DNA of 37,643 nt, taken from IMG/VR virus record IMGVR_UViG_3300036944_000513, positions 1 through 37,643 of that record; one strand, 5' to 3'. Shown in pieces: positions 929 through 36,815 of the stretch (position 1 is the stretch's first letter; each line of letters starts with the position of its first letter). Position numbers and translations under genes: made by a program. Under the pieces are notes generated by a model. The model was given only the letters and a program-made list of their open reading frames with translations. It ran no database searches and was not told the DNA's origin. Origin of the DNA: a virus.

Positions 929-946
929 TATATTTTCTTTCAATTT

Positions 947-1966: not shown

Positions 1967-1968
1967 GT

Positions 1969-2017: not shown

Positions 2018-2024
2018 GAAATTT

Positions 2025-3450: not shown

Positions 3451-3453
3451 TAA

Positions 3454-3687
3454 TTATACGACTATACGTAATTCGCCCGTCGATGTTTTATATACGGTAC
3501 TTGCAACTAAACCGGCACTCACTGCCATTGAATTATTTGCGTATGTTGGGATATTTGCAAGTTTCATATTCGCAAATAAGTTTGCAACAGTAATTTGACT
3601 GCTAGTAGTTCCATGCACAATATATAGCGCATCTGTACTGCTAACTGCTGTTACTGCTGGGAGTTCTGTTAATTTAAATTTTGCCAT
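3454..3687 (-). CDS. Short virion-type protein with fibre adaptor domain
   Basis: 77 residues. The first 45 (KFKLTELPAVTAVSSTDALY, SQITVANLF) closely parallel the N-terminus of the 1275-residue protein at 12226-16053 (LKITDLARASVVKTGDTFYV, KQIDAANLF), so this looks like a shared adaptor. The C-terminal VYKTSTGELRIVV is a motif often found at the end of phage fibre modules. It is probably a minor structural or fibre-attachment piece, or a minimal fibre that has lost its shaft. The end of the protein is a natural stop with no sign of frame disruption. Confidence 0.72.
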   Translation of the reverse strand: MAKFKLTELPAVTAVSSTDALYIVHGTTSSQITVANLFANMKLANIPTYANNSMAVSAGLVASTVYKTSTGELRIVV

Positions 3688-3695
3688 AATTGTAT

Positions 3696-4208
3696 TTATG
3701 CTAGTGGATTAGTGGGCCAGACAACAGTATCTATACTAGAATATGTCTTTGTAATATCTCTTAGTTGCTGACGATATTCTAACACTGCAGTTAATTGCAC
3801 ATCGGTGATTGTATGAGCAATATTTAATAATGCTTCTTCTTGATGGCGCTGTAATACCCAATCAGTTGAAAATAATAAAGAATTTCTCATTATATCTAGT
3901 GTTGGAACATATGTTTGAGGTGGATTTGCCGCAAGATCATCTTTTGCAGCCTGTTTAATAATGTCAATATTTGAAATTATCCAAGCCATTTCATCTGAAT
4001 TTTGCCCACTTATACATTCCCCATTTAATCGCTCAATTGCATAAATATTTCTTTCTGGTTCATATGCCATGATTCTAATGGTTTCCATATATGGAAATCC
4101 AGTAAGTTCTGCAAATTTTTCAGTTGAAGAAAATAAATATGTAATTTCATCGAATTTACATGAAATTGAATCATTATATAAGTCTATGGATAGGTAAGTA
4201 TGAATCAT
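3696..4208 (-). CDS. Probable tail-fibre assembly chaperone
   Basis: 170 residues from the ATG at 4208. The frame also extends to a TTG at 4241 that overlaps the upstream stop; the ATG is preferred although neither has a good Shine-Dalgarno. The C-terminal half shows the pattern of phage tail assembly chaperones: RNSLLFSTDWVLQRHQEEAL, then a helix ending LEYRQQLRDITKTY and a WPTNPLA tail (the YRQxLRDI...WPxxP block). Such proteins help trimerise or attach the fibre encoded just upstream, here the 794-residue collar-domain fibre. The N-terminal half (YLSIDLYNDSISCKF, FPYMETIRIMAYEPERNIY) is not recognised. Confidence 0.75.
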   Translation of the reverse strand: MIHTYLSIDLYNDSISCKFDEITYLFSSTEKFAELTGFPYMETIRIMAYEPERNIYAIERLNGECISGQNSDEMAWIISNIDIIKQAAKDDLAANPPQTYVPTLDIMRNSLLFSTDWVLQRHQEEALLNIAHTITDVQLTAVLEYRQQLRDITKTYSSIDTVVWPTNPLA

Positions 4209-4230
4209 AGTAATTTTTAAATTAATGGAG

Positions 4231-6615: not shown

Positions 6616-6642
6616 AATTTGTATTCAATATTCAACAAAATA

Positions 6643-7161
6643 TTAAACTAATCTAAAGTATCTTACGTCGATATATGAATTTGATATGCTATTAGACGTA
6701 AAAGTCAATACATTACCCGATACCGTATAATCAACATTTGGCGCAGCAACCAACCCATTAACATGGACAAAAATATTAGCGGGGCCACTAACCGTTCTAT
6801 TCATTATAAATGTTGTATTTGTACCATCACCGGTAAATGATTGATTCTCAAAAATTCCAGAAACTAACGCAATAATAGTATTTGCATTTGTGGAAAGGGA
6901 AATTGTTCCATCCGTTATAATAACGCCGCTACCAGCAGTAAATGCTGCTCTTGCTCTATCATTGGAGAAGTATAAATTTAATCCCTCGGCGATTGAAGAA
7001 GATGTTACTGTCGAGGCAATTTTTGAAGATGTGACAGAATTATCTGCAATTTTCGCAGTAGTAACTGATGAATTGGCGAGACTATTACTAGTTACTGCTC
7101 CAATCGCTATATTATTAGATTCTACTAATCCAAGTGATCCAAGTCGTGCTCTAGAAACCAT
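6643..7161 (-). CDS. Short fibre protein with NLYFSN repeat and DYTVSG beta domain
   Basis: 172 residues. The N-terminal part is made of short Ser/Thr/Asn turns typical of a beta-helical shaft (SVTTAKIADNSVTSSKIAS). One copy of the fibre repeat follows (EGLNLYFSNDRARAAFTAG). The C-terminal 75 residues (FVHVNGLVAAPNVDYTVSG ... YIDVRYFRLV) match a domain that also appears in the 668-residue and 1561-residue fibres, so this is a minimal member of the same family. A near-consensus late promoter lies 25 bases upstream, and CGGAG precedes the ATG. Confidence 0.8.
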   Translation of the reverse strand: MVSRARLGSLGLVESNNIAIGAVTSNSLANSSVTTAKIADNSVTSSKIASTVTSSSIAEGLNLYFSNDRARAAFTAGSGVIITDGTISLSTNANTIIALVSGIFENQSFTGDGTNTTFIMNRTVSGPANIFVHVNGLVAAPNVDYTVSGNVLTFTSNSISNSYIDVRYFRLV

Positions 7162-7178
7162 TATTGCTCCGAAATATT

Positions 7179-10100
7179 TTATTTAGTATTTATTTGTTGC
7201 TTTAAGGTGTCAACTTCTGACTTCAATTCCTTAATTGCCTGAATTAATAACGGAATAATTTTTTCATATTTTACCGCCTTATAACCAGTATCACGAGTAG
7301 TTACTACCTGTGGCAATACTGCTTCAATTTCTTGAGCAATAACACCAATGTCATTATACGTTCTATCTGGATACATTGCAAGTGCTGCATCATTCCAATC
7401 AAAAGATACGCCATTAATGTCATCAAGTTTAATTAATGCATTAGTAATTACATGGATATTAGTCTTTAGATTTCTATCAGATGAATAGAATGCAGTAATG
7501 TCATTGGTTGCACGAATTTCGCCCGCAAGTCCAGATGCAGCAGTACCAACACCTAAAGAGGATACTTGAAGATCAGTTGCAGTTCCAACTACCGATGAAG
7601 ATGAAATTCTACCATTGGCTTCAATTACAATGCCGGAACCAGCAATTAATGCATCCTTAATATCAACATTTGATACTCTGGTATATGTAATTACACCAGT
7701 CGAGCTATTGTATGCTACATTACCATAACCCTTTGTGCCAGTAACATTGGCATTAGTAACACTAATTGCACTTCTAGCACCGGTATCAGAAAAGGCGGTT
7801 AAGGTTGAAAGAATTTGACCGTTAGCTTCAATTACAATACCATTACCAGCAGACAATGCAGATTTAATGTCGGCATTGGAGACACGAGTATATGTAATTA
7901 CGCCAGTGCTACTATTGTATGCAATGTTACCATACCCAAGTTTATTTACAACATTTGCATTAGTAACACTAATTGCACTTCTAGCGCCAGTATCGGTGAA
8001 TGCAGTCAAGGTAGATAAAATTTGACCATTGGCTTCAATTACGATGCCGTTTCCAGCAGACAATGCGCCTTTAATATCTGCATTAGAAACACGAGTATAT
8101 GTAATTACACCAGTTGAACTATCATATGCAATGTTACCATACCCAAGTTTATTAACAACATTGGCATTATTTACTCCAATTGCACTTCTAGCGCCAGTAT
8201 CGGTGAATGCAGTTAAAGTCGAAAGAATTTGACCATTGGCTTCAAGTACAATTCCATTACCAGCAGACAATGCAGATTTAATATCGGCATTTGATACTCT
8301 GGTGTATGTAATTACGCCCGTTCCACTATCATAAGTCAAATTACCATATCCAAGTTTATTAACAACATTGGCATTAGCAACGCTTATTGACCCTCTAGCA
8401 TTTGTATCACTGTACGAAGTAGCAGATGTAGCAATAGTTCCATCTGCCGCAATGGTAATTCCACTTCCAGCTTTCAATGCATCCTTAATATCAACATTTG
8501 AAACACGAGTATATGTGATTACTCCGGTTCCGCTATCATAGGATACATTCCCATAACCTTTTGTTCCAGCAACGTTTGCACTGGTAGCACTTATTGACTC
8601 TCTAGCACCAGTATTAGTGAAAGTAGTTAGAGTAGATAAAATTTGACCGTTAGCTTCAATTACAATACCATTACCAGCAGACAATGCATCTTTAATATCA
8701 ACATTTGATACTCTAGTGTATGTGATTACACCAGTGCTACTATTATATGCTACATTACCATAACCTTTTGTGCCAACAACGTTTGCATTATTTACGCTAA
8801 GTTTACTTCTGATTGTGCCATCTGTTGCCGAAATAATATCGGTAGAAATTACGCCAGTTGACTGAACATAACTTATACCACTTCCGTTGGAAATAGCGGC
8901 TCTTGCTCTAGAATTACTAAAATATAAAAATCCATCAGAATTAAATTCCGCGACATTCGCAGTAATCAATGATACTGCCCCAGTTTGAGCATTAACCGAA
9001 GTAACTGGGTATATAATTGCAACATTTGTCGCAGAAGAAATAATACCGTTTGCGCCAACTATAAACGAAGGAACAATGGTTGCATTTCCATACCCGCCAG
9101 CCGTTACTCCACTAGTTGGAATATTTGCGCCAACATCACTTGCAGAAAGTCCGCCCGTAGACGCGATTACACCATCGGTAATGGTAATATTATCACCGGC
9201 AGTAAATGCTGCTCTTGCTCTTGCATTAGAGAAGTATACATTTCCAGCAGTAGTATTACCAGATTCAATTACATTTCCGGTATACAATATTATAACGCCA
9301 GTTTTTCCATTGACAGATTTTACATTTGCGGTAATTGTGCCGTCTGTGCCAATGCCAATTCCATTGCCAGCAGTAAATGCTGCTCTCGCCCTAGCATTGT
9401 TAAAGAACACATTGCCGGAGGTAGTATTGCCATCTTCATATACATTTGATGCATCAATTGCACCCTGCAACTTTCCACCATTTAAAACTGAACTGGAAAT
9501 TGTACCTGTTCCAGAAATTGAAATTCCAGTTCCACCAGTTAATGCATAGATTGCACGAGTATTGGTAAAGTATAGGTTAGAGCCTTCATGCACATTACTC
9601 GTGTTAATATTATCTCTTACAGCAGCAATTGCTCGTACATTAGTAAAGTATACATTAGAAGTTAAATTTGAACCTTCTGGGATACTATCTGTTATAAATG
9701 TGGGGTTGTTTGCTTGCTGAACATTAGAATTTGTTATTGATAATCCACCGTTCGCGCTTTGACTTAATTTCAATGTTCCAATGTTAAGAGTGCTTCCAGT
9801 CAACCACACATCGCGCCATGGTCTTGTAGGGCTACCAAGATCATATACTCCGGCGGCAGCAGGAATAATATTTCCAGTTACCAGAGTTGCAGTATTTGCA
9901 ATATCAGCAATCACTCCTGATGTTACACCAGTTAAAGATGAAGATATTACTCCAGTATTACTAATTGCTACCCCAGTTCCTGCAGTAAATGCTGAAATTG
10001 CACGGGTATTTGTAAAGTATACATTTCCGGTAGTAGTATTACCAGATTCAACTATATCATTTGCAGATAAAATAACTTGCCCAATTCTTCCTGCAACACT

Positions 10101-17672: not shown

Positions 17673-18110
17673 TTATTTCAAAATTGACTTAATCATCCAT
17701 CCGTGTTTCTGATGTGCAGTTATACGATCTTGGAGAACATTGGAAATACCAATCTCCCCCATTGTTTCTGCGGTACGATATGCTTGTAACAATGCAAGAA
17801 TAACTGTATCATTGTCTCTGGATAAATCCATAAACATATTTCTTGCATCAGCAGGAATCATATCAACTTCCTGAATACTTGTTATATTTTTAAATGATGT
17901 GTATGAAGCATTTACTTTAACATCAAGTGTACGAATTAATTCTGCAATAGAATCAACTGCTGAAAATGCGTCAGTGTATAAATCATTCAAGAATTCATGA
18001 TATTGAGGAAAGTCATTTCCTTCAACATTCCAATGATAATTATGCGTTTTTAAGTAAAAGCTAAATGTATCAGCCAGTGCTTTTTGTAGTAATTGTGCTA
18101 ATGGGTTCAT
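17673..18110 (-). CDS. Dps-like miniferritin (DNA protection/iron storage)
   Basis: 145 residues, the usual length for a compact Dps. The Dps signature is clear: FYLKTHNYHWNVEG (18-31), YHEFLNDLY (37-45), AVDSIAELIRTL (51-62) and a last helix RITAHQKHGWMIKS. Family members form 12-mers that oxidise Fe2+ with peroxide and store iron, sometimes binding DNA. Aligned to E. coli Dps, ligands H51, H63, D78 and E82 are kept (H26, H38, D53, E57), but the D67 position is Asn42, followed by Asp43. There is no lysine-rich N-terminal tail, so DNA binding of the E. coli type is doubtful. A strong AAGGA lies before the ATG. It sits between two genes of the late structural region. Confidence 0.93.
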   Translation of the reverse strand: MNPLAQLLQKALADTFSFYLKTHNYHWNVEGNDFPQYHEFLNDLYTDAFSAVDSIAELIRTLDVKVNASYTSFKNITSIQEVDMIPADARNMFMDLSRDNDTVILALLQAYRTAETMGEIGISNVLQDRITAHQKHGWMIKSILK

Positions 18111-19938: not shown

Positions 19939-20454
19939 TTATTCATATAATTCAGCCCATGATAAAATACTCTCATCCCATTTATATAATTTTCCATCAA
20001 CTGGATATGGAACTGGAGCAGTCCACATCTTAGTTCTTTCATTAAATGACCATGATGCATGAGGACTATCTTCGATTGATAGTTTCTCTAATTTTAATCT
20101 ATTTTTCCAGTATTCACCTGATACGCCTTCAATGAAATATGGCGAATTACTCTCGGGTGCAATATCAGATAATTCACCATCTTCATCTCGAATAGCAAAT
20201 ACACAATACCACAATACATCATCAGTAATTGCAGTAAATTTATGCGAATGTTCTTTTTTAATAACAATAAAAGTTGGAGCTACAAATATTTTAGGTGGAT
20301 GCCCATCAATCTGAACTTCAACCGAGCCTGTTGCCAATAAACTAACATGGTCAAATAAATGATAATGTCCATGAGTTGACTCGCCTGCTTTTTTTAGGAC
20401 ATTTTGACGAACCCAAATATTTCCAATGTATCCTAAATCATGCTCAATCTTCAT
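19939..20454 (-). CDS. Cupin fused to W-rich phage end module
   Basis: 171 residues in two parts. Residues about 10-90 are a cupin barrel: GESTHGHYHLFDH gives an HxHxH metal site (H28, H30, H32), a second motif PTFIVIKKEHSHKF adds H69/H71, and G43 closes motif 1. Residues about 132-168 are a W-rich module (ASWSFNERTKMW, PVPYPVDGKLYKWDE, LSW) also found in the proteins at 20464-20838 and 33233-33859. Cupins can be metal enzymes or sugar-binding domains; no substrate can be assigned. The module shared with virion-type neighbours suggests this cupin is attached to the particle. AAGGAT precedes the ATG. Confidence 0.75.
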   Translation of the reverse strand: MKIEHDLGYIGNIWVRQNVLKKAGESTHGHYHLFDHVSLLATGSVEVQIDGHPPKIFVAPTFIVIKKEHSHKFTAITDDVLWYCVFAIRDEDGELSDIAPESNSPYFIEGVSGEYWKNRLKLEKLSIEDSPHASWSFNERTKMWTAPVPYPVDGKLYKWDESILSWAELYE

Positions 20455-20463
20455 AATAAATCC

Positions 20464-20838
20464 TTACGGCATAGTTGCAATAGTAGTAACCTCAATCCAA
20501 GTTAATGCATCTTTATCCCATGCCAATGTTTTTCCATCATCCGTATAACGAACTTTTGGTTCCCACTGACAAGTTTCTTCAATTAATGTCCATCCTTCAT
20601 ATGGGATAGGCGGAATAAATGCATCTCTGTCTGCATCATATTTATAACCAAATCCAGCATAATTTTTTCTAAATTTACCATTGTAGCTAGTTTGTTTCCA
20701 AGTTCCGCCAAATAAATTTTCACATAAGTCTATTCCGGCTTGTTCGCTTTCAATGCCATCTATTGTGATATCTTCGTTATTAACCACTACCCCATCAATA
20801 ACTATGTTGTTTTCATCTAATTGTACAAAATGTGCCAT
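20464..20838 (-). CDS. Small virion-type protein with W-rich end module
   Basis: 124 residues from ATG 20838, which has AAAGGA eight bases before it. A longer frame to 20892 overlaps the upstream gene and lacks such a signal. It begins MAHFVQLDENNIVIDGVVV, matching MSHFAKVENGIVTQVIVI in the 208-residue protein at 33233-33859. Both continue with W(K/V)QTSYN, RKNYAGxGYxY, DAFxxPxPYxxWTL and the W-rich end module. This arrangement is common in marine T4-like phages, as small proteins next to fibre genes; their role is not established. It follows the LamG/glycine-rich protein and precedes the cupin fusion. Confidence 0.78.
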   Translation of the reverse strand: MAHFVQLDENNIVIDGVVVNNEDITIDGIESEQAGIDLCENLFGGTWKQTSYNGKFRKNYAGFGYKYDADRDAFIPPIPYEGWTLIEETCQWEPKVRYTDDGKTLAWDKDALTWIEVTTIATMP

Positions 20839-20849
20839 AATATTATCCT

Positions 20850-23666
20850 TTACGTTACTGCGAATGTACCGGCACCGGTAAATGTATGACAAACATACCC
20901 CGGCCTAACAGTCGTACTAATTGTTCCACCGGTTGCCAACGCAGATGTTCCCGCATAAGATACAATTACAATCCCACTTCCACCTTGAGCGCCTAATCCG
21001 TTATCTTGAGATGAGTGAACGTCTGATGTTCCACCGCCACCGCCACCAGTATAAGCATTTCCATCATACCCATATGCTTTAGTTTGAGAACCATACACAT
21101 TTCCGCCATATCCGCCGCCGCCAAGACCACCGGGGCCACCGGAAGCAGCATCTGCAAGCAAGCCACCTCCACCACCGCCGCCAGCAAAATATCCAGCAGG
21201 AACACCGCCAATTAAAGCAAATTCAGGATATTGATATCCATTTCCACCAGATCCACCCGTGTTTGTTGCAATAACTCCGCCAGTTCCACCCTGAGTAGCT
21301 GCACCGCCGCCACCGCCTTGACCACCATTTGCAGTTACGCCGCCGCCTTGACCCTGCCCCTGAGTCCATAGTTTAGTTCCAACACCGGCAGAAGAGCCAC
21401 CAATAACAGTTGAGTTATTACCTTGACCGCCATATGAAACATATGATCCAAATGATGAGTTTGCGCCGCTTACGTTTGTTGCTCCACCGAGTCCAACTGC
21501 AACCGAATATGATGCACCCGAGTATGCAATAATTGGCGGGCCATTTGGAATTTTGGTAGTTTTATTATTTCCATAATAAAGTAATCCACCAGCACCGCCA
21601 CCAGCAGTTCGTTTTCGTCCGCCACCACCACCACCTGCAACAACTAATACTTCAAGTGCAAGAGTTTTATCCTGTTCAAGTGGAGCAGGAGTAAATGCCG
21701 ATGTATATCTTGCTACGCCCCGCGTAATACGAAGATCATCGATGTAACCATTTAAAGGAGAAGCTAAACTTCCATCAGCACCAATTACTGCGCGAGTAGC
21801 ATTTCCCCAAATAGCAGTTGAAACACTAGTAGTAGTTCCCGCCAAAGCACCGTTGACAAACCCACGAACAGTACTGCCGGAACGAGTAAAAGCAATATGA
21901 TTCCAAGTATTAATAGTTGGAACAACTGTAGTGTATCCAGTTGTTCCACTTGATCCATGAACATCAAATCTTATTTTTCCATCAGAGTTAAAGAAAAATA
22001 CTATTCTACCGGCACCTTCTGTGCCAATTGTAAATATAGATGGATTTCCAGAAAAACTAGTTGCATATACCCATGCTTCAACTGTAAAATCTCCAGCAAG
22101 TAATAAATCAGTGGCATCTGAAATTAATACATAATCTCCAGTACCATCAAAATACATAGAATATGGGTTAAATTTAGTAACTGCACTTGATAATTTAGCA
22201 TCACCAGCAGTAATTAAATTAGTGTTAGTATTTTTATCATAAATTGCAGCGTTGTCAAAATTTAATAGTAAAGAAGTATTTGGAATTGCAGTTAATAATC
22301 CAGTTGGGGGAGTAAATCTGGAAGTATACACTAATGACTTAGTAACTCTATAACTACTTATATATCCTTTAAAAAAGCCTGCGTTGCCGTTGTTAATACC
22401 ACCCACATTAAATGTAGATCCAGCATCATATGTAGTAGAACTATAAGTACCAATTGCACCCGGAATACCGTTGAAATAAGTTTTAATAGACCCTGCACTA
22501 TATGTCACTGCAATATGAAACCATTGATTAAAGGGATATTGACCGGTTACATTTGCACCCGAGCCATCATTGCCCTGCCAGCCAAATACATTTCCGGGGT
22601 AATTTCGTATAATGTTAGATTGTCCAGAGCCACCATCAAATAATCCAACCAAAGAAGTTCCGGTTAAATATACCCATGCTTCAATTGTCACGCTGCCAGA
22701 GGATGTTAAAACTGACCCCGGCATAGATAGATAATCAGTAGTGCCGTTAAAATACCCACTCGTGCCATGAATATTTTTATCATACTCAACAGTTTGATTA
22801 AATGGTGAATTGGCAATGCTTCTTGGGGTGCCTGCGACGGTTGGTGTAATATTAAATGGAGAGTTATCTTTGAATCTATTATCCTGACATGTCAATAAAA
22901 CTGTCCCCGGAATTGCGGTTAATGGGGAAGTTGGTGGAGTAAAGTAGGTGGTGTAAAGTACGACCCCATTTAGTATGCGTACATTACTAATATATCCATT
23001 AAAATATACTACATTTGAAACTCTTCCAATTTGGAATGCTGCAGTGCCACCTAAATTGACACTTCCAGTGTATGTAGAGCCTTCTTGTACGCCATTCAAG
23101 AATAGTTTCCAGTTACCAACCGATCCAGATAGTGCAACGTGATACCACGTATTAGGTAACAGTGTTGTTGTGCCGGTAATATTACTGGTATTACCATTTA
23201 AAAATATTAATAGTTTAGATGCATTTGTTCTAATTGCAACGCCAGAGTTACCATCAGTATATCTAGATACTATCGTTTGATCTACTGACGGAGTAGATGT
23301 ATTAAACCAAGCCTCTATAGTAATCGCGGAGGCAGAAGATCCAGAACCAAATGTGGTTCCATATGCTACCTCAATCGCATCGGTGCTGCCATTAAAATAA
23401 GCACTCCACCCAACTGGACTAAATGGAGAAAATGATCCCTGAGTAGGGGTTCCGACTGAGGTTATCGCCAATCCATTGCCACTAGAATCTACCAATGTTT
23501 TATTTTGAAACCCTACACTATTTTTTTTCTGCCCCTGTATCAGCAATGCGGTATTTCTATTAAGACTTTCTGGAGTGAGTGTCGGCGTTGCAGGAAAATA
23601 TCTCGCTACTTGACGATCATATGCACCCGATAAATCAAAAATACCTTTGGAATTTTTTTCTGCCAT
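20850..23666 (-). CDS. Adhesin: three LamG lectin-like domains plus glycine-rich domain
   Basis: 938 residues. A short N-terminus (GIFDLSGAYDRQVARYFPA) parallels that of the 1283-residue neighbour and is a likely virion anchor. Three concanavalin A/LamG-type domains start near 88, 305 and 502, each with YFxGxxDxxxx, (I/V)EAW, WxHxAxxx, G.I.(N/D).R and a closing LTAIP segment. From about 670 to 910 there is one uninterrupted glycine-rich domain (LEVLVVAGGGGGGRKRTAGGGAGG ... SGIVIVSYA), ending in a VCHTFTGAGTFAV strand. LamG domains commonly bind glycans; the glycine-rich part resembles T4-like adhesins of the gp38 kind. It is probably displayed on the virion for host attachment. Confidence 0.85.
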   Translation of the reverse strand: MAEKNSKGIFDLSGAYDRQVARYFPATPTLTPESLNRNTALLIQGQKKNSVGFQNKTLVDSSGNGLAITSVGTPTQGSFSPFSPVGWSAYFNGSTDAIEVAYGTTFGSGSSASAITIEAWFNTSTPSVDQTIVSRYTDGNSGVAIRTNASKLLIFLNGNTSNITGTTTLLPNTWYHVALSGSVGNWKLFLNGVQEGSTYTGSVNLGGTAAFQIGRVSNVVYFNGYISNVRILNGVVLYTTYFTPPTSPLTAIPGTVLLTCQDNRFKDNSPFNITPTVAGTPRSIANSPFNQTVEYDKNIHGTSGYFNGTTDYLSMPGSVLTSSGSVTIEAWVYLTGTSLVGLFDGGSGQSNIIRNYPGNVFGWQGNDGSGANVTGQYPFNQWFHIAVTYSAGSIKTYFNGIPGAIGTYSSTTYDAGSTFNVGGINNGNAGFFKGYISSYRVTKSLVYTSRFTPPTGLLTAIPNTSLLLNFDNAAIYDKNTNTNLITAGDAKLSSAVTKFNPYSMYFDGTGDYVLISDATDLLLAGDFTVEAWVYATSFSGNPSIFTIGTEGAGRIVFFFNSDGKIRFDVHGSSGTTGYTTVVPTINTWNHIAFTRSGSTVRGFVNGALAGTTTSVSTAIWGNATRAVIGADGSLASPLNGYIDDLRITRGVARYTSAFTPAPLEQDKTLALEVLVVAGGGGGGRKRTAGGGAGGLLYYGNNKTTKIPNGPPIIAYSGASYSVAVGLGGATNVSGANSSFGSYVSYGGQGNNSTVIGGSSAGVGTKLWTQGQGQGGGVTANGGQGGGGGAATQGGTGGVIATNTGGSGGNGYQYPEFALIGGVPAGYFAGGGGGGGLLADAASGGPGGLGGGGYGGNVYGSQTKAYGYDGNAYTGGGGGGTSDVHSSQDNGLGAQGGSGIVIVSYAGTSALATGGTISTTVRPGYVCHTFTGAGTFAVT

Positions 23667-23709: not shown

Positions 23710-26700
23710 TTATGGCAGTAAACCAAGTCTTGGGGGTGGAGTAAAGTTAGTTGTGTATTTTGCAGCGCCACCTATTGCACGTAAATCATCTATATAGCCA
23801 AATATATTTGAACTAGTAGTATCCCAATTACCACCACCGATTCTAGAGCCATTATTATCATTAAATTGGAATGCAGTAGCAAGCGTCAAAGGAGTTCCAG
23901 CAACACCATTTGTAAATACTTTAATAGTAGTACCACTTCTAGTAACAGCAACATGTGTCCATTGATTAAGTGAAAGATTTGGACCAGTTGCAGTATTAGA
24001 CCCGCCACCGGGAGCAACATTAATCATAGGAGTTAATCCATCAACCCTAAATGCACAGGCACTTCCAGAATATGCGGCAGTCGCAGACGATAAAATAGTC
24101 GCATAAGTATTTTGAGCAGTTAAATAAACCCATGCTTCAATTGTAAAATCACCAGTACCAAAGTTAAGATTTGGATTTGCTGGCAGTGTCAAATAATCCC
24201 CAGTACCATCAAAGTACATGCTATTATTGCCATATTTTTTAATACTTGTGCGAAGTTTCGTATCAGCAATCGTACTTATATTATTTCTTCCAGTAGCATC
24301 ATACATACCGGCATTGGCACCTTTTACTAATAGCACAGTTCCGGGAACATCTTTTAATATTGTTGGTGGTGTAAATGAGGCGATATAAAGTGCAGTGCCT
24401 TTTACTACACGAACTGAAGAAATATATCCAAATGAGCCACCATTATTTGTACCATTTCTTCCAATTTCAGCCGTTCCAGCAGCAAAATTAGTGGTAGTTG
24501 CAACGGAAATAACTTGAACTCCGTTAAGATATCCTCGCACCACTCCATTATTTCTGGAAAAAGCGATATGCTGCCATGTATTTAATACTACCGTTCCACC
24601 GGAAACTTGCCCAATTGCAGAATTATACCAGTACAAAGTTCCCCCAGACGTAAAAACTTGTATAGAATTACCGGTCATTGATATCAGGGTAAACTGAGAG
24701 GATGCAGTTGGATATACCCAACCTTCAATAGTGAAATCAAAAGTACCCATTCCCAGTAAAGGCGAACTTGGAATATCTAACCTTTCATTGCCACCATTAA
24801 AATACATACTACCATTTTCAATAATATCATATTGCGCAGTAGTAGTTGCCGTAAATGGTGTCAATGACTGTATTTGTGGAGAGCCGGTTTGAGTAAAAGT
24901 CAATGCATTTATTGAATTATCTCTAAATAAACTGTCTTGACAAGTCAATAAAACTGTTCCGGGAATAGCTGTTAATGGCGCAGTTGGTGGAATAAACGAA
25001 GAAGTATATACCGCAGTACCTTTTACAACTCTAACATTGGAAATATATACGCCACCACTGCCACCAGTTGGGCCAATATATCTTGCCGTACTGTTATTAG
25101 TATAATCAAATGTATTTGCAGCACTATATAACTGCACCCCATTAATAAAAACTTTTAATACCCCTGATACTCGACATACAGCAAAATGTGACCAAGTATT
25201 TAAAACTATAGATCCAACATTTAATAAATTGCCACCATTTTCTTGCCAATATAGCTGACTACTATATGTCAATAGAGACCAAGAACTGGAACTGGTTGCC
25301 GCCGTCAATAAATTATGAGCGGTGCCAGTATTGTATGCCCACATTTCAACCGTAAAGTCACTGGTACGAAACATTTGACCATCGCCCATACTTACAGTTA
25401 AGTAATCTGAAGTAGTTGGAAAATAATTACTATTTCCAACATAATCAACCGTTGTACCAATTGCTTTTTGAGCAGGATAAAAAGGCGAGAATGGTTGTAT
25501 TGAGGGTGTGCTAGTAATAGTTAATGCTATTGCATTGACTGAATTATCTTTGAATCTATTATTTTGACAGGTTAATAATATAGTTCCGGGGACTGCAGTT
25601 AGTGCATTTGTAGGAGGTAAAAAATTACTAGTATATAAAGCAGCCCCATTTACTAATCTAACATCAGACAAATATCCAGTCCATAGATATCCCCCAGATG
25701 GATTCGCCCCTATTGTAACACCGCCGCCATTTCCAACGGTTCCAGAAATAGTGTTAGTTCCTATAGAAATTCCATTAACATAACAGGTTACGGTTGAACC
25801 AACTCTAACCCATGCAATATGTGTCCACGCATTTAATGGAACCGACGTAGAAGTACCCCATGAATAATCTGCACCGCCATACACATTTACCCATGGTTGA
25901 CCGCCGCTACCAGTTAATGCGAAATACAATCTGCCTGACGCTTCGCTTCCAACGGTAAAAAATGCAGATGTTGATCCATAGGCAGTTATATATGCCCAAC
26001 ATTCAAAAGTAAAATTTCCAGAGCATTCTACATTATACGATGCGGTTTTTAAATAGCCGCTATTATTTAAATAATTACTCCATCCATTTGCACTAATAGG
26101 AGAAAAAGTTCCCTGTGCCGGAGTTCCTGCGATAGTAATTAAATTTTTAGCCGAACTAGAATCATAAAAAGTACTATTTACAATTTCATTATCATTTTGG
26201 AATGTCAATAATGTAGTATTAGTAATTGCAGTTAAGGGGGCAGTTGGAGGAATAAAATTACCACCATAAACAGCAGTTCCATTAACAACTCGGAAATCGG
26301 ACAAAGATAATCCTGCTGCAATTTCGCCAGCATCGTAATTTCTTCCAATTGATAATGTAGTAGAGGCATAATTGACTGCCTGTGTAAATGGCGTATTTGC
26401 TAATTTCCCATTTATATAAACATAGACTGCAAGTAAACTTCTAACAACTGCAATATGATACCATACGCCGGGAATAAATGTATATGAAAATCCTCGCTCA
26501 GTTCCATTTAAATATAATCTAAGTCCAGTTGAAGTTCTACCAATAATAGTTCTAGTAGTTCCATAGAATTCATAAGAAGTTTGATTCGAGGCAGTAGTAG
26601 CTCCCCATTTCATCCAAGATTCAATGGTAAAGTCTGCCGAAGTACCAAAATTCGCACCAGTAAATGCGGTATTATTCAATAATGCTGAATTTATATAGGC

Positions 26701-27561
26701 AGAGCCATATGATGAATATAATGAAGGGATAGTTGAAGAAAATGGAGTAAATGATTTTATTGACGGGACTCCGCTTACAACCATTGTAGTTGGATTACTT
26801 CTTTCTACGTGATACGAATCCATGCATGCCAATATGGCAGTTCCGGGAATTATTGTCAATGGGGAAGTTGGTGGGACAAAATTTGAAGAATATAGTGCAA
26901 TACCATTAACTAATCTAAAATTTGATATATGACCAACCCATGATCGAGAATTTCTTATATCAGATCCAATATTATGAACTCGCGCAGTTTGCGACATTGC
27001 CGCCAATGCCTGACTTGCATTCAATATTCCATCGATATATAATTTATAATTTGTGCCATCATATACAAATGCAATGTGATGCCACTTACCATCAGTAACG
27101 GTTGTCGTACCATTTAAAGTAAGAGTACCCGAACCACCATATATCCAAATAGAGTTTCCAGACGAATCTAATCCAATTACAAAAATATCAGTCACCGACC
27201 ATTCAGCAGTAGCGCCATTTTTACATAATCCAGCATACGCAGTTTTATTTACGGTATTCACCCAACACTCAAGGGTGAATGCAGTTGCGCCCATAAAAAC
27301 TGCCGAAGTGGTAACATAATCCGCAGATGTAGCAAAATAATTACTATAATACCCCGGCTGATATGGATGCTCATTACTGGCTCTTGCAGATGTTGGAGTA
27401 AGCATCCATTTATTCGTAGAAGCATCATCAATATATGTAACTTCGTTTGTCCCAATTAATAGGGAAGTCTTTTCAAAATAATCATAAAAAGCGGTAGGCC
27501 AAACTCCACTAAGTTGTTTATTATAAACTTCAGATAGAGTAAATGTTGATTTAAATGACAT
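23710..27561 (-). CDS. Six-domain LamG lectin-like virion protein
   Basis: 1283 residues. A short anchor-like N-terminus ([20 protein letters not shown]) is followed by six LamG/concanavalin A-like domains, each about 200-215 residues, recognisable by FTxExW (AFTLECW, DFTIESW, NFTFECW, DFTVEMW, DFTIEGW, DFTIEAW), W.HxA.xR and YISxxRxxxGxAxY. Between domains a linker repeats: [18 protein letters not shown], then DNS. The protein ends in the last LamG with no other C-terminal domain. Known LamG folds bind sugars with Ca2+, so a surface-glycan role is a fair inference. No enzyme motif was seen. It is joined to the preceding gene by a six-base gap without an obvious Shine-Dalgarno. Confidence 0.85.
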
Positions 27562-27567
27562 AGAATA

Positions 27568-30500
27568 TTAGTAAGTTATTGAGCCGGATGAAGTCCACTT
27601 ATACACATAATTACCATTTACAAGCGTAATGGTAGGACTTCCAGTTGTTGATGTAGCTAATCCATATTTAGCTGCGCTATAAGATATGATAACTACACCG
27701 GAACCACCCGATCCACCGTAATTATTAGCTCCACCGGGATTACTTCCCGCACCACCGCCACCCCCAGTATTAGCTACTCCAGCAACTCCGGGAGAACTGT
27801 ACCCCATATTTCCACCGCCACCCAATCCACCAGTAGAAACATGAGTAGTGTAGCCATTTTCTACGCCGCCTGCTCCCCCGCCACTATAATATGTTGGAGT
27901 TCCAGTAATGCTACTTATTAACCCATTTCCACCATTGCCACTCCATTTTTGTTCACCGGTTGAGCCAGAAAATCCATATTGACCAGCGCCGCCACCGCCA
28001 CCGCCAACTCGTGGGCCTCCGCCTAAGCCGCCCCGTGATCCCTGTCCCTGAATAATAGTTGCTGTAGGTGCAACAAATCCGCCATCGCCACCTGCTCCGC
28101 CGCCACTAGATGCCCCAGAGAATCCCGGATTATTGGCCCATGATGCTCCGCCTCCGCCGCCATATGAAATTATATCACCAAAAGTACTATTTACCCCAGC
28201 AAACGCATTTGCTGCACCAGAAGCATTATCAGAAAGACCGCCTGCACCAACAGTAACTGTTACTGTATTTCCGCGCATTATTAAATAATCTTCAACTGCA
28301 ACAAAACCACCAGCGCCACCGCCACCGCCAATAGTAGATCCTCCGCCGCCACCGCCACCAATAACTAAGCAACTAACTGATGCTACGTTTGGAGTATTAA
28401 CAGTTGACCCCTGATTAAAATATACTGTATCATTTGCACGAATGGTATATATTTTATACCCAGAAGAATATGATACATCAATTGCGTTTGCAGATTTTCC
28501 AACTATATCATATGCAATTGGGTGGCGTAAAATTACAACCCCAGTGCCACCATATCCACCATAATTCGGGCCAGCATCAGATGCGCCGCCGCCGCCACCT
28601 CCGCCGCCCAAATACATTCCACCATAGCCGCCGACAGCAATATTTGCATCACCACCGCCGCCGATGCCACCGTATCCAGAACCATAATATGAATTATATG
28701 TTTGTCCACCGCCGCCACCAGCATATGCAACATTTGAACCAGTTATACTAGAATATAATCCGGCTCCACCATTTCCGCCATTGGTTCCGTTTCCTTGCCC
28801 CCCAATGCCACCAGCACCACCACCGCCGCCGGAACCATATAATGACCCAGCAACAATTCGAGTTCCGCCGGGTGAACCTTGCCCATATATTCCAGATGAA
28901 CCACGACCTGCTCCGGCACCAGTTCCAGCATCCCCGCCACCGCTTGCCCATCCATTTGGAGCAGTTCCATTTTGATTTGATCCACCGCCACCACCACCAA
29001 TCATTTTTATCTCAAATGGAGATGTTGAATTGGTAATAGATGAAGACCCCAATTTAGTAATAACATTAACAAATGATGAATTATCTATAAACGCCGAATT
29101 TTGTAAAGTTAATAAAACTGTTGCAGAAATTGCGGTTAACGGAGAAGTCGATGGCTTAAAATTTGTAGTATAGAGTGCAGTACCTTTTAAAAGTCGTACA
29201 TTAGATATGTACCCCGACCAATTATTACCTGTGCCCCAGTTAATTCCACCAATAAATATATTATCAGCAGAGATATTACCGGTACTAGTAGCAGTAGCAA
29301 CCGATATTCCATTTATATACAATTTTGTTTGATTTGATCCAGTACCTTCTCGCACCAATGCAAAATGATACCACTCTCCAAGGACGGGATTAAAGTCATA
29401 AGTTATAACTGAAGACCCTTCAATCTGAACTACGATATTATTGCTATTGCTTCGGTAAAGTACAATACCATAATGACCACTTCCACCGAGGTGGAATAAA
29501 TGTTGCCAATGTGTGTAATCCACACTTTTAAACCATCCTTCTACGGTAAAGTTTCCAGTTCCAATTGCGAATCCGGTAGCATTTGAATCAACTTTAATTA
29601 CATCAGATGTTGAGTTATTAAAAAATCCAGACCAGTTTGAATTTACGATTGTATTTCCACCATTTCCACCCAAAGTTCCGGTAGCAGGCGATCCAGTTCC
29701 ACCAATTCCAACATTCACGAATATCGGAGATTCAAATGGGCTTCTATTTGAAATTTTTGGATTACCGTTTTTAGTAATTACTAAGTTATTTGTTGAACTA
29801 TCGTCAAATGACGTTCCCAATGTTAAAAAACTCGTGTTGGTTATTGCGGTTAGTGGTGCAGTTGGTGGAGCAAAGTTTGCAGTATAAAGTGCAGTTCCTT
29901 TTAATACTCGCAAGTTTGAGATATATCCGGGGAAATATTCGGTAGAATATGTAGGATAATCTCTACCAATCACTAAATAATTTGATGGTATTTGATAAGT
30001 TCCAGTTCCTTGCCCATCCAATACCCCGTTAAGATATAACTTAACATTATTTGTAGCAGAACCACTGCGAACTAACGCAATATGATACCATGTAAAATTT
30101 AAAATTGGAGTGGAGCAAGATACTATTCCAGTTTTTGTACCAGTTCCACCTGCTCCACTATTTGATCCACCTAACCAAAATTGTAAAACACCAGAACTTA
30201 TTCTAACCAAATTACTATCTGGATCTTGAGATCCTATGCCAAATATCCCATTTCCGTCAGCCGCTGGATTAGTTTTATATATCCAGCATTCAATCGTGAA
30301 ATCTCCAGTCAAATTAAATTGACTAGATGATGGAGTTATTAAATAATCCGTACTACCATCAAAATATCCAGAATATGAAAATGGAGCAACTGTGACTGGA
30401 ATTGTCCCAGTTGAAAATCCACCAGCGCCGCCACCAGCGCCTGCAGCAGACCCGCCACCGCCGCCACCACCAACTGCCAAATATTCTAACGATGTTATTG

Positions 30501-30577: not shown

Positions 30578-33151
30578 TTATAATGTTCTTCCAGATAATA
30601 AAACTGATACTTGCGATGCGGTAGTTGCTAATGCGCGAATTTTGTGTCCAGATGGAATTCTTTTTGGTGCTTCGCATAATTCAACTGAAGAATTTTGTGG
30701 TACAATAAAAGTAGAAGTTAAATATGATTGAATTACATTAGATGCATCAGTCCAAGTAACGGTAATTGCAATATTACCAATATCGCCGCTATTAACTAAC
30801 TTAATACTATCAATAATTGTAGATACACCAGTTGAAACATATACATCACCAGTTGCTGTGTCAGCATTAACGCCAACCCCAACATAACCTTCTACGCTTG
30901 ATTTGTTTTCATATACTACGATTGAGTGCAATACGTTTCCGATTGCGACACCAGAATCAAATGATTGCAATTTAATCAAATCATTTGCTTGTAAAATCTG
31001 TGGCTTGCGTAATAATTCTAATGAACTTCTAGCTGGAACTGGGATTTTATTTGCAAAAGATACATTTGCCGATGGAGATGAAAATACAAAGTTTCCAGTG
31101 ACAGCAACGTTATTACTTAAATTTGAATCGATATTTGTTACATAGATAGAATGAACAATATATGTATTTGCTGCACCAGAAGGAATAACTAATGCATTTG
31201 CTAGTGCAGATGTAATAGGATATGGAACTGCATTATTAATTGTTCTATTATATTTTTCTGAAACATTGCCAGATGTTCCACCACCACCGGATGCAGCAAT
31301 TGTACCGCCAGCAGAAATTGTAATACCTGTGCCAGCAGTTAATGCAGAGATTGCACGAGTATTTGTAAAGTAGAGGTTAGCGCCTTCTGTTACATTACTT
31401 GTACTAATATTGTCTTTTACTGCCGCAATAGCTCTAGCACTTGTGAAATATAAATTAGCAGAACCTTCTGGTACAAAATTTGTATTACCAGTGAATGCTT
31501 GAGTTGCACCGGTAATTGTACCAGTATCTGAAATAGTAATATTTTGACCAGCAGTTAACGCATAGATTGCGCGAGTGTTAGTGAAGTATAAATTACTACC
31601 TTCAGTCACCGATGATGTACTGATATTATTTTGAACTGCTGCGACTGCTCGAACATTGGTGAAATAAAGGTTCGCAGAACCTTCTGGTACAAAGTTTGTA
31701 TTACCAGTGAATGCTTGAGACGCCCCAGTAATTGTACCATCAGTTGCAATGGTAATATTTTGACCGGCAGTAAATGCTGAAATTGCTCTGGCATTTGTAA
31801 AGAATACATTTCCGGTGGTAGTAGTACCACTTTCCACGATTTGGCTTGCCGTAATTCCGCTAATTCCAGTACCGTCACCAAAGAATGTTCTAGCTTCTAT
31901 ATTTGCTAATCTAAATGAAGCATGAGCAGTGTTGATATATATGTCTGCGTCCGGTTCTGGAGTATATCCCTCAAAGAATTTCCATCTTGAATCAGTTGCA
32001 TCTCTAAAAACGCCGGTGTGAGCATATGTTCCATCATTATAATTACCAGCAAATCCCAAATCTGGATTAGTAATATCACTGTTAGAATTCAGATAAATCA
32101 TATTATCTGAAACTTTTAAGTTCAATACATTTATAGAAGCAATATTTCCAGTTACAAATAAATTGCCCTGAACAGTTAGATTACCAGATACATTTTGATT
32201 ACCCAAAACAGATAAATTGCCACCAATTGTCTGATCTCTAGTAGTTCCAACTAAACCATTTGCAGCAATTGCAATATTTTGACCAGCAGTTAAACTTCCA
32301 ACTGCACGAGTATTGGTAAAGTATAGGTTAGCAGTGCCTTCTGGTACTGAATTCGTGTTTCCAGTAAATGCTTGTGCCGCACCAGTAATTGTACCAGTAT
32401 CCGAAATAGTAATATTTTGACCAGCAGTAAATGCGAAAATGGCTCTAGTATTAGTAAAGTATAAATTACTGCCTTCTATAACATTGGAAGTATTAATATT
32501 GTCTTTTACTGCTGCAACTGCACGAGTATTCGTGAAATATAAATTAGCAGAACCCTCTGGAACTAAATTGGTGTTTCCAGTAAATGCCTGAGATGTTGCT
32601 GTAATTGTACCTGTGCCAGATATACTAATATTTTGACCAGCAGTTAACGCATAAATTGCACGGGTATTTGTGAAGTATAAATTTGCACCTTCTGTAACAT
32701 TGCTTGTGCTAACATTATCTTTTACTGCTGCAACTGCTCGTGTATTGGTGAAATAAAGATTGGCACCTTCTGTAACATTACTTGTGCTAACATTATCTTT
32801 TACTGCTGCAACTGCTCTGACATTACTAAAATAAAGGTTATTACCTTCTGCTACAGAGGTTGTAGTAATGCTATTTTGAACTGCGGCAAGTGCTCTTGCG
32901 TTTGTAAAATATAAATTTGTAGCAGATTCAACAACGTTGCTGGTATTAATAAATCCATTTACGGCAGTCAATGCTCTGGCACTAGTAAAGTAAAGATTTG
33001 CGCCCTCTGGAACATTGGTCGTAGTTCCAGTGAAAGACGAAGATGCTCCGGCAGCAGCAAAAACAAAAGTATTACCCTGAACAACGAGGGTATTTCCGTT
33101 ATTTCCTATTCCTGCGCCGATTTGTGTAATATCTATGCTTCTTTGAGCCAT
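30578..33151 (-). CDS. Long repeat fibre with C-terminal beta-sandwich pair
   Basis: 857 residues. About 13 copies of the fibre repeat (EGANLYFTNTRAVAAV and variants, 26 residues where adjacent) make a shaft. This is broken near residues 310-430 by a domain with stacked GNLTVQGNLFVTGNI strands and NMIYLNSNSDITNPDLGF, GVFRDATDSRWKFFEG. That domain is shared with the 668-residue fibre (GMFRDATDGRWKFFEN). The last 220 residues contain two related beta-sandwich domains like the 113-residue protein at 11875-12216. The N-terminus MAQRSIDITQIGAGIGNNG is not shared with the others. An exact late promoter lies 26 bases upstream. Confidence 0.85.
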   Translation of the reverse strand: MAQRSIDITQIGAGIGNNGNTLVVQGNTFVFAAAGASSSFTGTTTNVPEGANLYFTSARALTAVNGFINTSNVVESATNLYFTNARALAAVQNSITTTSVAEGNNLYFSNVRAVAAVKDNVSTSNVTEGANLYFTNTRAVAAVKDNVSTSNVTEGANLYFTNTRAIYALTAGQNISISGTGTITATSQAFTGNTNLVPEGSANLYFTNTRAVAAVKDNINTSNVIEGSNLYFTNTRAIFAFTAGQNITISDTGTITGAAQAFTGNTNSVPEGTANLYFTNTRAVGSLTAGQNIAIAANGLVGTTRDQTIGGNLSVLGNQNVSGNLTVQGNLFVTGNIASINVLNLKVSDNMIYLNSNSDITNPDLGFAGNYNDGTYAHTGVFRDATDSRWKFFEGYTPEPDADIYINTAHASFRLANIEARTFFGDGTGISGITASQIVESGTTTTGNVFFTNARAISAFTAGQNITIATDGTITGASQAFTGNTNFVPEGSANLYFTNVRAVAAVQNNISTSSVTEGSNLYFTNTRAIYALTAGQNITISDTGTITGATQAFTGNTNFVPEGSANLYFTSARAIAAVKDNISTSNVTEGANLYFTNTRAISALTAGTGITISAGGTIAASGGGGTSGNVSEKYNRTINNAVPYPITSALANALVIPSGAANTYIVHSIYVTNIDSNLSNNVAVTGNFVFSSPSANVSFANKIPVPARSSLELLRKPQILQANDLIKLQSFDSGVAIGNVLHSIVVYENKSSVEGYVGVGVNADTATGDVYVSTGVSTIIDSIKLVNSGDIGNIAITVTWTDASNVIQSYLTSTFIVPQNSSVELCEAPKRIPSGHKIRALATTASQVSVLLSGRTL
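31300..33030 (-). repeat. NLYFTN fibre repeats, in part tandem with 78-bp period
   Basis: Copies of the NLYFTNxRAxxAx repeat, including tandem ones with a 78-base (26-residue) period. The pair starting near 32686 and 32764 is almost identical at DNA level over more than 50 bases. The run is interrupted at about 31850-32240 by the shared RDATD domain. Boundaries are approximate. Confidence 0.75.
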
Positions 33152-33232: not shown

Positions 33233-33436
33233 TTAAATTTGAGAAGTTGATAATGAAGATACTTGCGATGTACTTAATGCTGAAATGCTATCTGTGCTCA
33301 ATGATGAGATACTACCAGTACTTAATGCTGAAATAGTTTCAGTGGTTAATGCTGGAATGCTACTGGTACTTAATGCTGAAATAGTTTCAGTGGTTAATGC
33401 TGGAATGCTATCTGAACTCAACTCGGGGATAGTTTC
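33233..33436 (-). repeat. 24-bp tandem coding repeat (8 residues x 8.4)
   Basis: Encodes the 8-residue repeats at the end of the 208-residue protein. Two units together form a higher-order 48-base period: the 45 bases at 33318-33362 recur exactly at 33366-33410. Such identity suggests recent expansion by slippage or unequal recombination. Confidence 0.85.
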
Positions 33437-33859
33437 AGCAATCATTTCGGAAACTTCTGTAAAAGTGATAGTAGTTGTGGGCTCAAGTCCTTCGACTACA
33501 ACACTACTCATTGGAATGCTTTCAATCCAACTCGTGGTTTCTTCATTCCAAATATACATTTTACCATCAATTGACATTGGAACTGGCGGTAACCACATGC
33601 AGGTGTCAGTATTCAATGTCCAGCTTGGATAAGGCTGGGGTGCATAAAATGCATCTAATTCAGAATTATAAGTGTAACCAATTCCTGCATAATTTTTACG
33701 AAGTGGAATTCCACCTAAACGATGAACGCCACCGTATGTATTATAACTTGTCTGCACCCATAACGCAGGATCGCCAAATAATCCAGTATCAACCACATCT
33801 TGTTCAATAACAATAACTTGTGTTACAATTCCGTTTTCAACTTTTGCAAAATGACTCAT
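33233..33859 (-). CDS. W-rich module protein with 8-residue repeat tail
   Basis: 208 residues. Residues 1-115 are the same two-part unit as the protein at 20464-20838: MSHFAKVENGIVTQVIVI, WVQTSYN, RKNYAGIGYTYN, then the W-rich module SWTLNTDTCMW, PVPMSIDGKMYIWNE, TSW. Residues 142-208 are eight copies of an 8-residue unit, consensus (D/E/S/G)(S/T)I(P/S)ALST, plus a partial SQI. Similar LTTxQIxAL-type repeats occur in bacterial surface proteins, where they may form a regular solenoid. The protein stops in mid-unit. AAGGA is placed well before the ATG; no exact late promoter is present upstream, only a weak TATAAAAT. Confidence 0.78.
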   Translation of the reverse strand: MSHFAKVENGIVTQVIVIEQDVVDTGLFGDPALWVQTSYNTYGGVHRLGGIPLRKNYAGIGYTYNSELDAFYAPQPYPSWTLNTDTCMWLPPVPMSIDGKMYIWNEETTSWIESIPMSSVVVEGLEPTTTITFTEVSEMIAETIPELSSDSIPALTTETISALSTSSIPALTTETISALSTGSISSLSTDSISALSTSQVSSLSTSQI

Positions 33860-34808: not shown

Positions 34809-36815
34809 TTAAGCCTCCTGTGACACGGCTATTGCATCCCAGCGGGAATCAGTTGCGTTATATATGCAACCAACATACATCATTTTCAATGCAACGGTAG
34901 TCGTAGGCAAAGTTATGCCAATCGCCCTAAATGCATTCGTAGAACCAGTAGTCCATGTTAAAGCACGGGGAGTTCCATCATCTTCGAATCTAAACATCAT
35001 TTTTTGACCATCGGCAGGTGATGTATTTGCATCAGCATTAATTGTCAGCGCATTAGCCAATGCTGAAATAGCATAAACATCAAAAGAAGTACTATCCCAA
35101 GCCAAAGGAGAAGTGACACTTACTGCACTATTTACCTTTGGTTTAATGCTAGTCGTAATATTTACACGACCAGTTCCTTTCGGTGTAAAAGTTATGTCGG
35201 TATTTTGACTTGTTCCTTGGGCTGAAAGTGTAACCGCAGCATTACTAACTCCACCAACAATTTGCAAATAATTAGCATTATTAGCACTGAGTCTTGCTGT
35301 TCCATTAATATTAATAATGGCACCATTTGTCGAGCCAATTGTAATATTACTCTCAGCAACTAAAGCTGAAATTACTCTGGCATTAGTATAATATAAATTA
35401 ACTGAGCCTTCGCTAATTGAATTAGTATTTCCAGTAATTGATGTAGCAGGGATATCAGTTAACCCAAGCCCACTCCCAAAGAATACATTAGCCTGCACAT
35501 TTGCAAGTCTAAATGTAGCATGTGCAGTATCAATAAATGCAGATGCATCTGGTTCCGGCGAATAATTTTCAAAGAATTTCCATCTACCGTCAGTGGCATC
35601 CCTGAACATACCAGTGTGATGATAGGTTCCATCATTATAGTTAGCTGCAATTCCAATATCCGGATTAGCAATTAAACTATTAGAGTTCAGATAAATCATA
35701 TTATCCGTAACACTAAAATTTGCAACATCAATTTTTGCAACATTGCCCATAATAAGCACATTACCATTGACTGTCAAATTACCTTCAATTATCTGATTGA
35801 TTGTAGTGGTAATTACGCCGCCTGCTGAAATATTTAAGTTTTGACCAGCAGTGAAAGCAGATATTGCACGAGTATTTGTGAAGTATAAATTATTACCTTC
35901 TACGACATTACTGGTATTTAAATCAGCAGTATTAGCTTTAACATTTATCAAACCGATTACATTAGAATAAACTCGTGCATTAGTATAATAAAGATTGGAT
36001 GATACTTCAGGAACTGACCCAGTGTTTCCGGCGAATGCCGGTGAAACGCCGGTAATTAAACCATTGGCAGCAATACTAATATTTTGACCAGAAGTTAATG
36101 CCGAAATTGATCTTGCATTGGTAAAGTATAAATTAGTTCCTTCTGGAACTGAGCTAGTATCACCATTAAAATTAGAATACTCTCCATCGGAAATTCCAAC
36201 TATCCTAACATCAATCGTGGCATTTGATATAGTATTTCCAGTGAATGTTAAATTTGCACCACTTATATTATAATCAATTATCGGAAGTTGAATTAATCCG
36301 TTAACCACCACAAACATTCGATTTACATCTAAAGGAACGGCATCTAAAGTATAATTTGAGTCTCCACCAACAAGCGTCTGTTGAATTACAGAAGAACCTA
36401 AAATATTAGCAGTCGATGTAATTAAACCGTTTGCATTTATACTAATTCCATTGCCAGCAGTTAACGCTGAAACTACCCGTGCATTAGTAAAGTATAAATT
36501 AGCTGTGCCTTCTGGTACAACATTAGTATTACCTGTGAATGCGCTAGAACCAGTAATTAATCCGTTTGCATTTATACTAATTCCATTACCAGCAGTTAGT
36601 GCCGAGACAACACGAGAATTCGTGAAGTATAAATTAGCTCCCTCTGGAACTAAACTGGTATTTCCAGTGAAATTGTCAGCAACAGGAATTCCACCAACGG
36701 TCACGCCATCGCCGATATAAACTAATTTAGTATCGGTTGCATATATAACCTCACCCTCTAAAGGAGTAATAGTTAATCTATCGGAATTTAATCCTCTGCG
36801 TAGTTTAAATGCCAT
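34809..36815 (-). CDS. Tail fibre with Mtd-N-like adaptor and conserved C-terminal domain
   Basis: 668 residues. Residues 1-48 (FKLRRGLNSDRLTITPLEGE, YATDTKLVYIGDGVTVGGIPV) fit the N-terminal domain found in the Bordetella phage tropism determinant and many fibres. Six NLYFTN/NLYYTN repeats follow. A beta domain (VVVNGLIQLPIIDYNISG) is shared with the 172-residue protein, and the RDATDGRWKFFEN domain with the 857-residue fibre. The last ~95 residues (DGQKMMFRFEDDGTPRALTW, LPTTTVALKMMYVGCIYN, RWDAIAV) form a C-terminal domain I recall from many marine phage fibres. Its place next to the glycine-rich protein suggests a fibre-plus-tip pair. An exact late promoter lies 29 bases upstream. Confidence 0.87.
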   Translation of the reverse strand: MAFKLRRGLNSDRLTITPLEGEVIYATDTKLVYIGDGVTVGGIPVADNFTGNTSLVPEGANLYFTNSRVVSALTAGNGISINANGLITGSSAFTGNTNVVPEGTANLYFTNARVVSALTAGNGISINANGLITSTANILGSSVIQQTLVGGDSNYTLDAVPLDVNRMFVVVNGLIQLPIIDYNISGANLTFTGNTISNATIDVRIVGISDGEYSNFNGDTSSVPEGTNLYFTNARSISALTSGQNISIAANGLITGVSPAFAGNTGSVPEVSSNLYYTNARVYSNVIGLINVKANTADLNTSNVVEGNNLYFTNTRAISAFTAGQNLNISAGGVITTTINQIIEGNLTVNGNVLIMGNVAKIDVANFSVTDNMIYLNSNSLIANPDIGIAANYNDGTYHHTGMFRDATDGRWKFFENYSPEPDASAFIDTAHATFRLANVQANVFFGSGLGLTDIPATSITGNTNSISEGSVNLYYTNARVISALVAESNITIGSTNGAIININGTARLSANNANYLQIVGGVSNAAVTLSAQGTSQNTDITFTPKGTGRVNITTSIKPKVNSAVSVTSPLAWDSTSFDVYAISALANALTINADANTSPADGQKMMFRFEDDGTPRALTWTTGSTNAFRAIGITLPTTTVALKMMYVGCIYNATDSRWDAIAVSQEA

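Follow-up and report, generated by a model that had tools for sequence, protein, structure and literature searches.

Among described systems, one of the closest to the protein studied here is gp24, the fibre of myocyanophage Pam3 (PDB 7ypx, 7yfw). It has a TNF-like sandwich with strands that follow the fibre axis and lead, distally, into a lattice of glycine-rich motifs; its distal ends are the proposed place of receptor contact (PMC9608196). The accessible part of that account describes no inserted domains in gp24, and a separate chaperone, gp25 (PMC9608196). The gp38 adhesins of phages S16 and PP01 resemble it in having a poly-glycine lattice with variable loops that bind receptors or are proposed to do so; they differ in having a beta-helix base and short distal specificity loops, and no insertion of a whole domain appears in the available portions of the two sources (PMC6851490, PMC12892980). 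As known so far, poly-glycine and TNF-like/glycine-rich (TG) fibre domains shift specificity by short tip loops. LamG lectins are placed on tail fibres in a review of jumbo phages, the accessible text of which holds nothing resembling a LamG within a TG domain. Domain shuffling in phages is documented as a general mosaic exchange of protein fragments; the terms LamG, lectin, glycine, inserted and nested are absent from the available text of that study, where we found nothing on insertion into glycine-rich domains (PMC10684548). Here we analyse a protein of 1002 residues (P0001; 27568-30576, minus strand) in which two LamG domains interrupt a single TG domain. It is encoded in a window of 37,643 nucleotides, positions 1 to 37,643 of the 101,643-base uncultured-virus record IMGVR_UViG_3300036944_000513. 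The literature searched, which did not cover most subscription papers and bioRxiv preprints, yielded no description of a TG domain with a LamG inside it.

Pfam divides the protein into two Laminin_G_3 and three Gly_rich_2 stretches. The two LamGs match PF13385 with 77.1 and 68.8 bits (cut-off 27.6): LamG 1 covers residues 67-283 (29728-30378, minus strand, as are all features of this gene) at a hairpin turn that we call site 1, and LamG 2 covers residues 314-521 (29014-29637) at a second turn, site 2. The TG family PF21722 scores 100.9 bits over the whole protein against a curated cut-off of 24.3, with matches above it for the first glycine-rich piece (24.3 bits) and for a second, uninterrupted TG domain at residues 734-967 (27676-28377; 78.2 bits). 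Such proteins look like strings of unrelated domains while holding one split domain, which is a warning for annotation.

The pieces of the first TG domain were located with our own profile, built from 12 uninterrupted TG domains. Its background was the glycine-rich composition of the domain itself, so that glycine content alone gains no score. When long inserts were allowed at a flat cost, residues 30-61 (30394-30489), 280-313 (29638-29739) and 523-686 (28519-29010) aligned to the consecutive model positions 1-32, 33-66 and 67-234; the start of the middle piece overlaps the end of LamG 1, their border being uncertain by about 4 residues. As a flat cost favours abutting positions, each piece was also aligned singly and the order was kept: the N-terminal piece ends at position 33, the middle one takes 29-66 and the C-terminal one 60-234. 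No shuffled version scored as well for the N-terminal piece (0 of 300) or the C-terminal piece (0 of 60). Before insert costs, the interrupted domain reaches 117.8 bits, against a median of 117 (range 92-151) for 67 intact domains held out of the profile, 34 of which score no higher. Of the 50 model positions richest in glycine, it has kept glycine at 49. With a score and core glycines like those of an intact domain, inserts aside, the first TG domain is, as judged by profile, not a set of three unrelated stubs and not a ruined domain. The first-pass annotation had proposed that the N-terminal half, read without residues 67-283 and 314-521, becomes one continuous glycine-rich domain, and had named profile alignment as a check. 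The whole-domain and the piece-wise alignments both join the segments in order and, at the level of sequence, establish the order and completeness of the pieces; the placement of residues 67-521 at 29014-30378 on the minus strand was also correct.

The fold of the scaffold is best seen in the intact second copy, a natural control that stands in for an insert-free construct. Its AlphaFold model (79 sequences) has a mean predicted local distance difference test (pLDDT) score of 92.0 and a predicted template modelling score (pTM) of 0.90. The top Foldseek match in the PDB is the Pam3 fibre. With VIA-align, the model superposes on the Bxb1 tail tip with Z 13.7 (3.5 Å, 174 residues), on the Pam3 fibre with Z 13.2 (2.7 Å, 169 residues) and on ALK/LTK with Z of about 5-6. 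The ligand-binding TG region of ALK/LTK has the same TNF-like/glycine-rich fold but belongs to an animal receptor, and we know of no LamG inside it. T-even gp38, an adhesin with N-terminal attachment helices, a beta-helix and ten glycine-rich motifs, did not come up in either the sequence searches or the fold searches, an absence that we do not count as refutation. What had been taken for a polyglycine adhesin is indeed glycine-rich; the fold matches of the intact copy amend it to the TG fold of the Pam3 fibre.

In the intact-copy model, the insertion sites fall on turns 53-55, 85-86 and 174-179, between the strand pairs 43-52/56-60, 82-84/87-89 and 171-173/180-182, with no glycine lattice between. 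Intact domains have a median of 7, 3 and 8 residues between the site anchors (ranges 7-7, 3-17 and 4-25). Because each of the three sites is a turn with a beta strand immediately on either side, we infer that they lie at the strand end that forms the base of the fold, away from the poly-glycine tip. The earlier picture of lectins displayed on loops of an adhesin is thus kept as regards the insertion of LamGs and revised as regards its place: strand turns, probably at the base, opposite the poly-glycine tip loops, which in gp38 bind receptors. For the continuity of the interrupted domain, two BFVD models may lend indirect structural support. A0A6J5L2W1, by name a ConA-like lectin of an uncultured phage, aligns with the 287-residue intact domain over 518 columns (template modelling (TM) score 0.76), and A0A6J7XNJ3 does so over 437 columns (TM 0.79); both appear to be TG cores with long extra stretches, which the alignments do not place within the core.

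The same architecture is found in other phages. Searching with the protein itself and with alignments of LamG and of glycine-rich sequences led to 382 screened sources, the window included; later, the 49 records from which 50 chosen loci came were searched for the families, and seven stretches from six of these records were screened. The first screen returned a LamG inside a TG domain in L001, L023, L240, L094 and L076, and the targeted stretches added L415, on the contig shared by L023 and L240, and L418. Seven further LamG-interrupted TG domains are therefore present on five other contigs, making 8 domains with 10 LamGs on 6 contigs when the window is counted. Site 2, the turn before the strand at model position 67, is cut in 7 of the 8, in the window by LamG 2. 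Site 3 (model 162/163) is cut by a LamG only in L076, and site 1, near model position 33, is occupied by a LamG only in the window. In L001, L023 and L415, the cut given by the profile parse comes 13-19 model positions too early; judged from the LamG borders in the sequence, it lies at site 2. The architecture is real, recurrent and orderly: related phages, in which the first-pass annotation had suggested looking for it, carry it independently on five other contigs. A chimeric assembly, conceivable for a contig of an uncultured virus, has a negligible chance of explaining an architecture that recurs in this way and that lies, in the window, in a single open frame without a stop.

It is also unlikely that the first TG domain is a decaying copy, broken by its inserts and serving as a mere carrier, with the intact second TG domain doing the work. 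An intact copy does stand directly behind the cut one in the 1002-residue protein, and L094 and L240 likewise have intact copies adjoining theirs. However, the near-complete core glycines and median-level score of the window domain do not look like decay, the other seven cut domains keep 46-49 of these glycines, and in L418 the cut TG domain is the sole one found in a reading frame of 524 residues.

Among 103 distinct complete TG domains of at least 60 bits, 6 held a LamG; the sample is enriched in LamGs and so yields no frequency, and the count left out partial domains, domains below 60 bits, duplicate loci and two LamG cases that came later. The genome_contigs scan, with 80 of 190 loci kept, gave no case in the screen, and a scan of viral contigs for the exit-junction DNA pattern gave no new LamG insertion among the matches listed. 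Named phages searched for the TG domain returned two weak matches only. For Phage DSL-LC04, chosen for its matching LamGs, the annotation lists no glycine-rich domain and the sequence screen gave no case. Glycine-rich 'inserts' in L054, L142, L194, the second L240 domain and L393 turned out to be mis-parsed tandem TG domains; L033, L172, L085, L192, L134 and L061 were dropped because they showed loose repeats or short extensions (40-52 residues), and the parses of L419 and L410 were left uncounted. Alignments mixing all domain types misplaced rows and were not used for folding.

The inserted LamGs differ from those in tandem arrays in the order of their chain. In the AlphaFold model of the interrupted region (residues 20-705, 32 sequences), both LamGs and their closing strands mostly have pLDDT values of 75-95, and LamG 2 superposes end to end on pentraxin domains (PTX3, Z 22; CRP, Z 20), covering nearly the whole length of both. 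We mapped a profile of the strand segment that lies between array LamGs around every LamG core. In arrays of at least three LamGs, the segment stands in front of the first core in 108 of 130 cases and in front of the last core in 160 of 166, with 7 of 166 having it behind. For inserted LamGs the closing strand comes directly behind the core in seven of the eight tested, including LamG 1 (residues 258-283, 29728-29805) and LamG 2 (residues 487-521, 29014-29118) of the window; in the eighth, the first LamG of L023, it comes after the second LamG. None of the eight has its own segment in front, the match before LamG 2 of the window being the closing strand of LamG 1, and a by-eye reading of L415 and L418 also puts the closing strand behind the core. 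Phage PF13385 arrays such as that of the neighbouring 1283-residue protein belong to the same family and the same lineages, yet have the closing strand before the core. The window inserts are LamGs by profile and depart from the array order of leading strand, then core.

The inserts had been described as starting with SGYF or SGFF and ending in SPFE, at the boundaries seen between LamG units elsewhere in the locus. These motifs are present, but they are not LamG borders in the neighbouring arrays: there, the quoted boundary separates the leading strand of a unit from its core. Inserted LamGs are consequently, by their order along the chain, circular permutants of array units. L023 (frame 1576-6531, plus strand) goes further: its residues 137-554 hold core A, core B, strand and strand in one TG domain, apparently with LamG B nested in LamG A, itself nested in the TG domain.

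Comparison of the LamGs connects the two contexts. The best match of all eight inserted LamGs tested is an array LamG, never another inserted one. LamG 2 of the window shares 84.5% identity with an array unit in L001, and LamG 1 shares 72% with one in L023; for the inserted LamG of L001, the nearest sequence (47%) is an array unit of the 938-residue neighbour in the window. Shared stretches of DNA are limited to the core, at codons 316-481 (77%) and 71-239 (73%). A tree of 72 LamGs requires 8 changes of context, at least 6 of which are forced by well-supported branches. These comparisons demonstrate a relationship of LamG cores, as encoded, across the arrays and TG turns of different phages. 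Among themselves, inserted LamGs share 26-38% identity. Domains of the LamG and pentraxin folds also act in protein-protein contacts, and with this in mind the inserts could be structural spacers or oligomerisation parts instead of glycan binders. We consider this a minor though serious possibility: the divergence among inserted LamGs fits a change of specificity better, without being decisive.

On this basis, we think it likely that the split TG domain folds as a unit and that the LamGs at its base serve as swappable glycan-binding modules. The 1002-residue protein would be a structural component of a T4-like myophage, probably a tail fibre or another host-contact protein. Its first TG domain would fold jointly in spite of the two LamGs, which, going by the order of strands in the model, would sit in strand-end hairpin turns and protrude as a collar at the base, leaving the poly-glycine tip free. 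LamGs could plug into these turns because, as circular permutants, they should have both chain ends side by side, as expected from a pentraxin-like fold. Their cores would move between the tandem arrays and TG turns of different phages, probably when LamG genes that resemble one another recombine. A likely advantage is that a putative glycan-binding specificity may be added or swapped while the receptor-binding tip of the TG fold stays undisturbed.

Some points weigh against this proposal. The 34-residue middle piece is marginal alone, being equalled by 6 of 300 shuffles (23 of 300 for residues 284-313), and is therefore supported by its position more than by its score. The model of residues 20-705 has an overall pLDDT of 68 and a pTM of 0.51, does not resolve the scaffold, whose third piece is mostly at 30-50, and comes from a shallow alignment. 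The placement at base or tip is drawn from strand order and from the description of the Pam3 fibre, not from coordinates. Rows of the LamG tree were picked as nearest relatives, a choice that favours interleaving, and the arrangement was not found in any named cultured phage searched. The weak middle piece and the unfolded scaffold would suit a protein built like beads on a string, with three separate glycine-rich linkers between LamGs and no joint fold. We regard such a string as very improbable, given the consecutive, non-overlapping model positions of the pieces, the confident single fold of the intact copy, seven other domains cut at the same few turns and the BFVD prediction of a TG core with a long insert; a model that fails where its alignment is shallow counts for little against joint folding.

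Here, whole lectin-type domains occupy fixed TG turns, in more than one phage and more than once, and their chain order is permuted accordingly. Such insertion would give environmental phages a separate means of diversifying their host range, and would be a natural case of a fold that tolerates inserted domains; its recurrence at a small set of turns in related phages suggests a plug-in site at which parts for host recognition are swapped.

TG turns may receive other guests as well. In L105 (frame 704-1930, plus strand, residues ~161-236), a beta-rich segment of about 65 residues that is not a LamG stands at the site-2 turn; allowing the insert brings a small gain, 24.1 against 23.7 bits, and the call rests on the reading of the sequence. 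In L414 (frame 3399-8033, minus strand, residues ~794-1250), a divergent TG domain lies within another TG domain at the site-1 turn. Both are single cases. We would give about even chances to a broader reading, in which foreign domains of various kinds can dock at TG hairpin turns as a general site, LamGs are permuted and stackable, cassettes shuttle between arrays and slots, and lectins diversify at the base while the receptor-binding fold itself otherwise stays constant. As a separate observation, L413 (5545-18999, minus strand) holds a very long frame, of which the stretch covers more than 4400 residues; it contains several TG domains separated by repeats of another type.

With a DNA primase of the T4 type, about 40% identical to its best phage matches, an S74 chaperone domain and several matches to tail-fibre families, the window is, by gene content, a fibre-type locus of a T4-like myophage; it also encodes ThyX and an Mtd_N domain. 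The gene of the 1002-residue protein is flanked by a repetitive 857-residue protein on one side and by two LamG-rich neighbours on the other. One of these (1283 residues, 23710-27561, minus strand) is by profile an array of six LamGs with leading strands; the other (938 residues, 20850-23666, minus strand) has an array of three LamGs followed by an uninterrupted TG domain at ~20952-21653. Proteins encoded at 30578-33151 and 34809-36815 (both minus strand) contain many copies of the short repeat EGxNLYFTNxRA, and the Mtd_N domain is at the N-terminal start of the latter. A diversity-generating retroelement was considered and rejected, there being no reverse transcriptase in the record. Three genes beside fibre genes, at 33233-33859, 20464-20892 and 19939-20454 (all minus strand), have phrog_7759 in common, the match of the last being confined to its C-terminus; they are possibly fibre accessory proteins. 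Finally, a Ferritin/Dps-like protein is encoded at 17673-18110 (minus strand), inside the structural gene region.
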